Notes under the pieces: model-generated
Databases searched by the model: none
Seen by the model: only the letters and a program-made list of their open reading frames with translations
What the model was told of the DNA's origin: nothing
Source: Lacticaseibacillus camelliae DSM 22697 = JCM 13995
GTDB taxonomy: Bacteria; Bacillota; Bacilli; Lactobacillales; Lactobacillaceae
DNA: 52,439 nucleotides
NCBI RefSeq assembly: GCF_001311195.1
Contig: NZ_BBAJ01000008.1
Location: 1-52,439, forward strand
Direction: 5' to 3'
Made by a program: the position numbers and the translations under genes
Shown: positions 49,268-50,965 of the stretch, in pieces
Position numbering within the stretch: the first letter of the stretch is position 1
Layout of the letters: each line of letters starts with the position of its first letter

Positions 49268-49969
49268 TTACCCTTCTGTGTAAGGATGATCCGGGTCGTC
49301 GTGTTTTTCCGGTGCCTCGCTGGCCTGAGAGCCTTTCGGAGTCTCAGGTGCCTTGGGTGCTTGTGGTGCAACACTGGTAGTCGGCGCTGCAAAGACGTTA
49401 GGATCGATCCGCGAATCTAAGTCGGAACGGGTACCGGTGTCATCAGCAGGCAAATTTGGTAATGGTTTGGACGGCAGTAAGGTGAGAATCAGGATCGACA
49501 GGGAGACGGCCCAGGACAGGAGGCTGGCGACTGTCGAGTCCTTCGGCATGAAGTTAGTGGAGGCGTTTATTAACAGTTGGACCAGGTAGATCCACCATGG
49601 AATCCCCGCATCGCGGTAGCGCCGAATGAGCAGGGCCAAGGATGGGACCAGTAGCACCAGTGCTACAAGAATGACCAACAGTAGAAAAATCACAAGGCCG
49701 ATTCCCATGTGGCCAAAGATTTTGGCCGGGCTCATGGTGTCCGGGTCGAGGCCAATCGCAGAGCCAACCACCGCAACGATAAAGCCAATCATGGCGACAA
49801 TGCTTAGGATGGCACCAAACAGAATGACCCACCAGTACTCACTGCGACTGGAGCGTCCCGTAAAGTTGAAGTAGTTACCGAAAAATGCCTTAATTGTTGA
49901 AAAGCCCGTGGCGCGGTAGTACTTGTTGTTCGCGGCGGCCTGCTCCTGTGCACTAGACTTGATTGCCAT
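49268..49969 (-). CDS. DUF805 family membrane protein
   Basis: 233 residues. AFFGNYFNFTGRSSRSEYWW is the DUF805 hallmark, followed by TMs (VILFGAILSIVAMIGFIVAV, IFLLLVILVALVLLVPSLAL), the RRYRDAGIPWW motif, two more TMs, and a Pro/Ala-rich, acidic C-terminal tail of about 55 residues with EAPEKPxxxP-like repeats (PQAPKAPETPKGSQASEAPE). Function unknown. Frame intact. Divergent from the efp unit. Confidence 0.85.
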   Translation of the reverse strand: MAIKSSAQEQAAANNKYYRATGFSTIKAFFGNYFNFTGRSSRSEYWWVILFGAILSIVAMIGFIVAVVGSAIGLDPDTMSPAKIFGHMGIGLVIFLLLVILVALVLLVPSLALLIRRYRDAGIPWWIYLVQLLINASTNFMPKDSTVASLLSWAVSLSILILTLLPSKPLPNLPADDTGTRSDLDSRIDPNVFAAPTTSVAPQAPKAPETPKGSQASEAPEKHDDPDHPYTEG

Positions 49970-50048
49970 TTTTTCTCACTCCTTACCCAATTTTACTGAA
50001 TCGTAGCATAACGCCGTGGTGCACGCAATCGCTTCCGCCTAGAGGTGG

Positions 50049-50078
50049 TTAGTTTTGCGCCGTTATAAATGGTATACT
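50049..50078 (+). promoter_or_regulatory. Putative promoter of the efp leader/efp unit
   Basis: TTAGTT (50049-50054), 18-nt spacer, TATACT (50073-50078) with extended TG at 50070-50071. Start near 50085, which places GGTGC-GCTGAT-GCACC (50088-50103) at the 5' end of the transcript and the small frame at 50123 as its first coding sequence. Confidence 0.55.
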
Positions 50079-50122
50079 GGAACGGATGGTGCGCTGATGC
50101 ACCGCTGATTGGAGGCTGTTGC

Positions 50123-50194
50123 ATGGACATTTTAAAGTGGCGCGTGCTGCCGCCCCCATGGCGCAAGGCCAGTCGGACGCAGCTTAGCTTTTAA
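50123..50194 (+). CDS. Putative 23-residue EF-P-sensing leader peptide with Pro-Pro-Pro-Trp
   Basis: ATG 50123 has GGAGG (50111-50115) 7 nt upstream. The peptide reads MDILKWRVLPPPW and continues RKASRTQLSF; the PPP codons are at 50150-50158 and Trp at 50159-50161. Polyproline, especially PPP and PPW, is the classic EF-P-dependent stall motif. The TAA stop (50192-50194) overlaps the AAGGAG (50193-50198) of efp, so translation of the two is physically linked. The inferred role is a cis-acting sensor of EF-P activity. I know of no described example upstream of efp. A chance frame is possible, so confidence in function is lower than in the observation. Confidence 0.55.
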   Translation: MDILKWRVLPPPWRKASRTQLSF

Positions 50195-50207
50195 GGAGAG
50201 ATAAATA

Positions 50208-50764
50208 ATGACGCAAGCAATCGATTTACGTGCCGGCATGACGTTCGTGAAGGACGGCAAGCTGATCAAGGTTTTGGAAAGCAATCACCACAAGCCGGGC
50301 AAGGGTAACACCTTAATGCAGCTGAAACTCTACGACGTACGGTCCGGCTCCACGGTCCAAACGACCTACCGCCCGACGGAAAAAATCGAGCTGGCCGAGC
50401 TGATCACCAAGCCGGCTCAGTACCTGTACACGCAGGATGACACCGCGATTTTCATGGACCTGGAAACGTACGAGCAGTATGAGATCCCGACGGCTAGCTT
50501 GGAATCGGAGCGCAAGTACCTGCTAGAAAACATGAAGGTCGCTATCGAGTTCTACGGCACCGAGGTCATTGGGGTTACCCTGCCAAGCACGGTAAACTTG
50601 AAGGTGGTTGAGACCCAGCCGTCGCTTAAGGGTGGGTCAGTGACCAACGGCGGCAAGCCGGCTACGATGGAAACTGGATTGGTCGTGAACGTCCCCGACT
50701 TTGTTCAGGCGGGCGAAACAATCGTTGTCAGCACCAGACTGGGAACTACGAGAAGCGTGCATAG
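50208..50764 (+). CDS. efp: Translation elongation factor P, one frameshift near the C-terminus
   Basis: Binds ribosomes stalled at polyproline and promotes peptide bonds. N-terminal KOW-like domain with the tip loop [14 protein letters not shown], whose Lys (KPGKG) is the residue modified in many bacteria; then two OB domains ([50 protein letters not shown]). One base is missing at about 50740, restoring TGNYEKRA, the normal EF-P end; corrected length 185 residues. AAGGAG sits 9 nt before ATG 50208 and overlaps the stop of the upstream small frame. The usual lactobacillus partners amaP and nusB do not follow. Confidence 0.94.
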
Positions 50765-50772
50765 GTTACCGA

Positions 50773-50799
50773 AGCACCGCTGCGGCGGCGCTTTTTTTT
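50773..50799 (+). terminator. Terminator of efp
   Basis: AGCACCGC (50773-50780) with GCGGCGCT (50785-50792), one mismatch, TGCG loop, eight T. Confidence 0.85.
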
Positions 50800-50965
50800 G
50801 TCCCTTCTGAAGGCGTTTAATGGAAAAAACGCACACAATCTTGACAGGCACAACCTACTTATGAGAACCCGCTGAGAGTAATTGGTCTACTTCTAACAGC
50901 ATTGTTAGGTCAAATCACCTCCTTTCCCCTTATACTGAAAAGGTAACAGGGAAGGGCGGAGGATA

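Follow-up and report, generated by a model that had tools for sequence, protein, structure and literature searches.

The window, a stretch of 52,439 nucleotides from Lacticaseibacillus camelliae DSM 22697, carries a gene for elongation factor P (EF-P), hereafter efp2, and directly upstream of it on the same strand a short leader frame with its own ribosome site (Table 1). The frame was read and translated directly. It ends 13 nt upstream of efp2, and the last of its consecutive Pro codons begins 52 nt 5' of the efp2 ATG. An in-frame ATG at 50069 would extend it to 41 residues; the start was placed at 50123 because of the GGAGG, the homologous leaders and the position of the upstream ATG, which directly precedes the -10 hexamer. 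An identical TGGTATACT lies 5' of the leader at three other loci (L032, L033 and L043), and at the remaining loci the best -10-like hexamer 5' of the leader varies from perfect to weak. A 233-aa reading frame on the minus strand (49268-49969) diverges from the leader, so that leader and efp2 probably begin a transcript of their own, which they would have in common and from which the leader would be translated.

Table 1 Features of the leader and efp2 in the window.
Feature	Position	Strand	Remarks
Extended -10 promoter element TGGTATACT	50070-50078	+	From sequence reading; putative transcription start at about 50085
Leader Shine-Dalgarno, GGAGG	50111-50115	+	7 nt 5' of the ATG at 50123
Leader reading frame, 23 codons, MDILKWRVLPPPWRKASRTQLSF	50123-50194	+	ATG at 50123, stop codon TAA at 50192-50194; read and translated directly; counterparts in relatives
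Pro-Pro-Pro-Trp codons, predicted EF-P-dependent stall site	50150-50161	+	PPP 50150-50158, W 50159-50161
Leader C-terminal part, 3' of the stall motif	50162-50194	+	Varies freely in relatives; pN/pS 1.10 after PP
efp2 Shine-Dalgarno, AAGGAG	50193-50198	+	Overlaps the leader stop codon TAA
efp2, second EF-P paralog	50208-50810	+	ATG at 50208; one-base frameshift near the 3' end compared with two relatives
Intrinsic-terminator-like hairpin and T run 3' of efp2	50778-50799	+	Sequence common to two relatives

An earlier, sequence-only reading of this DNA had described a 23-codon frame with its own GGAGG before efp and a Pro-Pro-Pro-Trp (PPPW) motif inside it, and both are borne out by reading and translation. 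It had also placed the frame behind a good promoter; the extended -10 element is indeed present, but the -35 element is poor and a strict sigma-70 consensus scan gave no promoter over threshold at the leader. The overlap that it pointed out between the leader TAA and the AAGGAG of efp is real in the window, but in this exact form it occurs only there and in the two closest relatives.

Lacticaseibacillus has two EF-P paralogs, and the gene in the window is the second of them; efp2 is present in all 30 genomes of the genus. The window's copy is 66-96% identical to the efp2 of 29 congeners (96% for L. hegangensis, the nearest relative among the compared genomes) and 42-46% identical to whole efp1 matches, and it scores 206 bits against the EF-P model TIGR00038 (cut-off 185.8). 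The loop of efp1 reads HVKPGKGSAFVR. That of efp2 is a Lys loop, HHKPGKGNT, which is invariant in 16 of 16 aligned efp2 sequences (the 10-residue stretch varies at its first residue only) and was also read in the window's own reading frame; it does not correspond to EfpL/YeiP, defined by an Arg at the tip of an extended loop. Compared with two relatives, efp2 of the window is frameshifted by one base in its last codons (50730-50810), and the reading frame consequently runs to 50810. Moreover, efp1 is in two pieces both in the window's genome (G000:C22 21314-21867) and in genome G003 (G003:C17 21904-22456). The assembly of the former consists of 161 contigs and is 84.5% complete, that of G003 is also about 85% complete, and the frameshift and the split efp1 may be either sequence errors in a poor assembly or real decay. 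At least two efp matches were found in each of the 48 leader genomes counted directly, and the leaders of three named Pediococcus records are identical to those of genomes already counted for efp copies.

Distribution, selection and spacing of the leaders

The DNA 5' of efp2 was read in 108 usable Lactobacillaceae loci (30 + 18 of 19 + 40 + 20), 52 of which have a short frame with consecutive Pro codons (PP leader). These belong to six genera: Lacticaseibacillus (24 of 30 loci, 22 with PPP and two with QPPS), Pediococcus (g5; 5 of 10), g47 (13 of 13), g38 (3 of 3), g39 (4 of 4) and g54 (3 of 14). Examples are MFIFFSGLGHALVMPLPPPVRRAE, MFIYFGYSKRALVVPLPPPRQA, MLHFGFALPLPPPSELF, MVHRGFALSLAPPFLTIH, MTLRGFALPQSPPSFCDN, MSFTLKIMRSIFSIPPN and MNTIYLLLIKKFALPPAC, each followed by a stop codon. 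The detailed analyses were conducted with 51 leaders, L069 being omitted as its leader peptide is the same as that of L064 and L151. The leaders are 14-35 aa long and contain two to six Pro codons each, in runs of two or three and written with different CCN codons; their common feature is a mostly hydrophobic stretch together with PP or PPP. A motif search for AL..PLPPP in 101 genomes of the family gave 6 matches in 6 genomes, and the match in Lacticaseibacillus (G021) is the efp2 leader.

The sequence-only reading had proposed to look across the family for a short frame before efp in which PPP is kept and the other residues vary; such frames are what was found in the six genera, and in them purifying selection gives way to neutral evolution at PP. 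The full PPPW, which it had taken as the motif, is present in only 5 of the 51 leaders, so that PP or PPP is the shared part and an essential role of the Trp after PPP was rejected. It had also counted loss of the frame from relatives that keep efp against itself, and such loss does occur: the PP leader is absent in 6 of the 30 congeners, namely L051-L055 (one group, which includes L. zeae and L. chiayiensis) and L. nasuensis. PP leaders are likewise absent from the other half of Pediococcus and from most g54 loci, and none was seen in the efp2 loci read from Lapidilactobacillus, Loigolactobacillus, Latilactobacillus, Agrilactobacillus, g26 and g48.

Several of these loci show other arrangements. 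L. nasuensis (L162/L045), which has no PP leader, has a strong GC-rich hairpin, noticed by eye, in the efp2 5' region. In a second Pediococcus subclade (L091, L095, L098 and L099, from genomes G222, G288, G258 and G126) another conserved short frame is located within about 90 nt before efp2 (MSPGARSLNEGSFK, MSPGARSFNEGSCK, MSPGPGARSLNEVNRN and MSPGPARLVNEVVSS, each ending in a stop codon), with a start-proximal SPG or GPG, identified by eye, in place of PP; this frame is possibly another Pro-stall sensor. One of the four g6 efp2 loci (L116) has an ATG frame with GPPGG and no Shine-Dalgarno sequence, which was not seen in the other three. Within g54, the leaders of L121, L134 and L136 begin with an ATG a few nucleotides 3' of the -10 element, without a Shine-Dalgarno sequence, and seem to be read from leaderless mRNA, the leader frame of L135 is interrupted early on, and at most of the remaining loci efp2 seems to come straight after another reading frame with no leader in between.

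The specificity of the association was assessed with a fixed detector, requiring an ATG, a Shine-Dalgarno sequence, 8-40 aa and a last Pro codon 40-150 nt upstream of the gene. On efp2 it recovered 24 of 30 loci in Lacticaseibacillus, 13 of 13 in g47, 3 of 3 in g38, 3 of 4 in g39 and 0 of 14 in g54; the leaders that it missed are the three of g54, which lack a Shine-Dalgarno sequence, and the fourth of g39, which starts with TTG. On control genes in related loci it gave one hit in 244. No frame was detected before 30 efp1-type genes, at 27 Bacillota efp loci (27 of 30 loci, from 119 genomes) or before 44 efp2-like genes outside the Lactobacillaceae, and the notion that PP leaders are a broad habit of efp genes was rejected on these grounds. 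Two efp1 loci (L024 and L025) do have a PP frame, ending at -41, which failed the Shine-Dalgarno test.

Selection on the peptide was estimated from 17 non-overlapping close pairs of leaders, for which pN/pS was 0.14 before PP (62.3 synonymous and 26.7 nonsynonymous differences) and 1.10 after the second Pro (26.1 and 88.9, respectively; Fisher p 2e-11 on rounded counts). A different set of 27 pairs gave 0.18 before and 1.02 after PP. The invariant PP was itself a condition for inclusion in this test and carries no weight as proof. In the three-species clade of the window there are few changes before PP and these are mostly nonsynonymous (0-1 synonymous versus 1-3.5), which means that the purifying signal stems from the wider set. 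By this comparison of related sequences, the codons up to PP are shown to be under purifying selection and those after it to drift.

The position of PP relative to efp2 is also kept. The last Pro codon, with a median position near -59, is located 49-67 nt 5' of the efp2 ATG in 41 of the 51 leaders. In this subset of 41 the position of PP has a standard deviation of 5.1 nt and that of the stop codon one of 12.4 nt; across the full set of 51, the stop codon falls anywhere from 4 to 118 nt 5' of the ATG. The codon number of PP is constant within groups: 10 or 12 in the five loci of the window's group, 17 (16 loci) or 18 (3 loci) in most Lacticaseibacillus, 11-12 in g47, g38 and g39, and 15 in Pediococcus and g54. 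As judged by comparison of the loci, the distance from PP to efp2 is thus held more tightly than the position of the stop codon. Predicted hairpins absorb some of the long spacers, reducing the effective length from 90 to 54 nt in L038, 139 to 57 in L050, 90 to 54 in L113, 100 to 61 in L057 and 73 to 48 in L036, and with this correction the spread over all 51 leaders drops from 17.5 to 8.7 nt. Exceptions are L136 (74 nt), which has no hairpin, L049, which drops to 44, and L039 and L056, which drop to 32; the mean hairpin z over all 51 leaders is about 0. These predictions are only suggestive of hairpins that hold the distance when the spacer is long.

A tree built from 118 EF-P sequences places all 51 leaders within one Lactobacillaceae efp2 clade (78 rows, support 99/89), on which leader presence requires 7 label changes, compared to 38.5 for shuffled labels. 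No such leader was found at the efp2-like genes of Enterococcus, Vagococcus, Streptococcus and others. The simple reading of the tree would be one gain followed by several losses, and the alternative is that there may have been several gains. Agrilactobacillus (g29, 3 genomes) and g6 (4 genomes), which are placed inside the leader-bearing clade, have a single efp match per genome, which belongs to the efp2 lineage, and lack a leader under the present definition; the loss of efp1 and that of the leader coincide in both lineages. Several lineages with two efp genes are also without a leader.

RNA folding and termination

The predicted effect of a stalled ribosome on the efp2 Shine-Dalgarno sequence differs between the genera. 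For the 27 leaders of genera other than Lacticaseibacillus, a ribosome on PP lifts the predicted accessibility from 0.39 to 0.64 (p 2e-5); the corresponding values for synonymous controls are 0.41 and 0.57, so the gain is 0.25 versus 0.17 (p 0.15). The pairing of the Shine-Dalgarno sequence with the stall footprint is 0.49 in these genera compared to 0.36 in the synonymous controls (p 0.036), and their Pro codons, in DNA that by eye is lower in G+C, often act as an anti-Shine-Dalgarno sequence. The modelled release thus only weakly exceeds what synonymous codons would give. For the 24 Lacticaseibacillus leaders, including that of the window, accessibility goes from 0.47 to 0.50 with the stall (p 0.10) and the pairing with the footprint is below that of the synonymous controls (0.03 versus 0.06, p 0.008). 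As no opening is predicted in this genus, folding does not explain the step from stall to efp2 in the window.

There was no consistent sign that the leaders are more folded than shuffled sequences (mean z of -0.28 in Lacticaseibacillus, 0.83 in Pediococcus, 1.18 in g38, -1.64 in g39, 0.57 in g47 and -0.24 in g54), RNAalifold gave almost no covariation in five subsets (-0.1 to -1.6), and no Rfam match was obtained up to E 1 within 49950-50850. In nine g47 loci (L102, L104-L110 and L124) the leader has a Shine-Dalgarno-like GGUGG complementary to Pro codons such as CCACC, which could therefore pair with either the leader or the efp2 Shine-Dalgarno sequence; the covariation value of -0.1 gives this practically no support.

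A strict search for terminators with perfect stems matched one of the 51 leaders (L047). None of the 30 Lacticaseibacillus genomes has a Rho over the TIGR00767 cut-off of 509 bits, the best score in the genome of the window being 37 bits. Since a single strict terminator match and no Rho were found, termination is unlikely in the genus of the window. A genome of the genus Pediococcus (G033) does have a Rho, at 610 bits, and a Rho mechanism may operate there.

Interpretation of the leader

That EF-P relieves stalling at consecutive prolines is well established. According to one study, PP and PPP stall ribosomes, EF-P relieves them and the strength of the stall depends on the residues before PP (PMC4176338). 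We infer from the sequences a ribosome stall at PP, its relief by EF-P and an induction of efp2 by the stall. A ribosome on the leader would synthesize a short nascent chain of mostly hydrophobic residues before reaching PP or PPP. With sufficient EF-P activity it would pass and terminate harmlessly; with EF-P scarce or unmodified it would stall at a nearly fixed site upstream of efp2, the expression of which would change, most likely upwards, and the outcome would be that a backup EF-P is made when EF-P runs short. If its footprint extends about 17 nt past the P site, the stalled ribosome would have its front edge about 40 nt 5' of the efp2 start and leave the efp2 ribosome site uncovered. 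Folding predicts that the stall exposes the efp2 Shine-Dalgarno sequence in the other genera; in Lacticaseibacillus a possible alternative is that the stalled ribosome shields the 5' region of the mRNA. Protection of the mRNA 5' end by a stalled ribosome is known from other Gram-positive leaders.

We consider it likely that the leader is a translated regulatory leader which stalls on PP and senses EF-P activity, with efp2 most likely induced when EF-P is short. That it senses EF-P is highly likely, and, granted this, induction of efp2 is reasonably probable. The sequence-only reading had proposed that EF-P senses itself; an EF-P-related PP leader is supported, but not pure self-sensing. As the gene is the second efp, the sensor would most likely read total EF-P activity, EF-P1 included, and set the backup copy. 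What counts against stalling is that LPPP was a weak staller in one E. coli reporter (PMC4176338), and that the residue at -1 is L in 26 of the 51 leaders. The hydrophobic residues before PP may hold the peptidyl-tRNA against drop-off, and such residues before Pro do suppress drop-off, as described in a study carried out in vitro with residues before PPP (PMC8934632). Drop-off and reinitiation at PP, considered because PP comes early in the frame, is disfavoured for the same reason, many leaders being hydrophobic there.

The most specific form of this scheme, which could as easily be wrong as right, is a dedicated EF-P homeostat, with EF-P1 as the housekeeping factor, the hydrophobic PP leader as gauge and a stalled ribosome at a fixed, hairpin-kept distance that would turn on efp2; it would have been gained once in the Lactobacillaceae and lost, among others, in two single-efp lineages.

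The sign of the response could also be the opposite, if the leader had to be finished for efp2 to be translated, by translational coupling or reinitiation, and stalling lowered efp2. The overlap of the stop codon with the efp2 Shine-Dalgarno sequence in the window and its two closest relatives would fit this, as would the stop codons even closer to the efp2 ATG in L040 and L060 and the clade of locus 31, in which a ribosome at the stop codon raises the predicted Shine-Dalgarno accessibility more than one at PP. However, the stop codon wanders between 4 and 118 nt before efp2 and PP keeps its distance better, the codons between the two are neutral, and the loop would turn EF-P2 off just when EF-P is short. 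We hold this opposite sign to be unlikely; coupling through the TAA overlap was rejected as a general mechanism because the position of the stop codon is not conserved.

Sensing of proline or Pro-tRNA supply in the manner of an amino-acid attenuator, instead of EF-P, would account for Pro codons being the common element, and slow decoding of Pro would pause ribosomes too. It is nevertheless improbable, considering that there are only two to six Pro codons per leader, with varied CCN codons, that the residues before PP are kept at the amino-acid level, something that a response to codon starvation would not require, that the controlled gene is an EF-P and that a strict terminator match was obtained in one of 51 leaders. 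The conservation of these residues, together with the hydrophobic start of many leaders (MFIFF...), would equally be expected of a small functional protein, such as a small membrane peptide, that is a neighbour of efp2 by chance. Such a protein is very improbable here, as the part after PP is neutral and variable in length (leaders of 14-35 aa), PP keeps its distance to efp2 and none of 30 efp1-type loci gave a detector hit. That six of the 30 congeners and several genera have no leader could suggest that the frame arose by chance in GC-rich DNA or is a functionless, decaying relic, and this is scarcely credible given one detector hit in 244 control genes and a pN/pS of 0.14 before PP.

Relation to known systems

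The sensor of EF-P activity that we favour is similar to SecM/secA, MifM/yidC2, CliM/yidC and ApdA/ApdP, in which a short nascent chain stalls the ribosome and controls the gene directly downstream. A short frame with its own ribosome site lies directly upstream of efp2 (the three g54 leaders being without a Shine-Dalgarno sequence), and amino acids are selected up to PP and not beyond (17 pairs). While SecM, MifM, CliM, ApdA and ApdP monitor protein export or insertion, the efp2 leader would sense the elongation factor itself. RAPP-type arrests are described as refractory to EF-P (PMC12992588). The RAPP/RGPP motif is absent from the efp2 leaders, with Arg at position -2 from PP in none of the 51.

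Pro codons in a short leader also set the expression of the next gene in the case of mgtL, the leader of mgtA in enterobacteria, and expression of mgtA depends on EF-P. In the literature, mgtL is described as stalling on a proline-rich leader and acting via Rho-dependent termination (PMC5021804), and EF-P and EfpL as factors that may assist MgtL synthesis (PMC11611912). The difference is that mgtL controls a Mg transporter, whereas the leader here would control an EF-P in a genus where Rho was not found (0 of 30 Lacticaseibacillus genomes). EfpL (YeiP), the second EF-P of E. coli, resembles efp2 in being a second EF-P paralog, but its loop is longer and carries Arg at the tip, and no evidence of copy-number control is reported for it (PMC11611912); efp2 has the Lys loop HHKPGKGNT. 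In the same paper, Sieber et al. 2024 speculate, without giving a mechanism, that in some lactobacilli translational need governs the second efp (PMC11611912). Features of his- or trp-type amino-acid attenuators are not seen, the Pro runs being of two or three and a terminator-like site occurring in one of 51 leaders. The leader thus fails the tests for mgtL-type Rho control (in the genus of the window), for RAPP peptides, for amino-acid attenuators and for EfpL.

A PP motif in an upstream frame is also known from animals, where the uCC of AZIN1 uses a PPW motif to sense eIF5A, the eukaryotic homologue of EF-P; this system, which is eukaryotic, works by ribosome queuing and start-site choice and does not control eIF5A itself. 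Translation factors that control their own gene through their own activity on the ribosome are RF2 (prfB frameshift) and IF3 (infC AUU start), in which the element is inside the gene itself. They differ from the efp2 leader in being different factors and in having no leader peptide. In its mode of action the efp2 leader would resemble those arrest peptides, such as SecM, whose output acts back on the machinery being monitored.

No published efp leader was found in the part of the open-access literature that was covered; subscription papers and preprints mostly fall outside it, which makes this weak evidence of absence. To our knowledge, EF-P is nearly universal and little is known of how bacteria adjust its amount. 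The leader supplies a concrete and testable mechanism by which the second efp of lactobacilli could respond to need; its many natural variants can be compared with one another, and the lineages that have lost it can serve as controls. If the reading is true, a leader peptide senses an elongation factor, controls a gene for that factor and could be used as it stands to report EF-P activity in Gram-positive bacteria, and an elongation factor paralog would be controlled by the very stall that it resolves.
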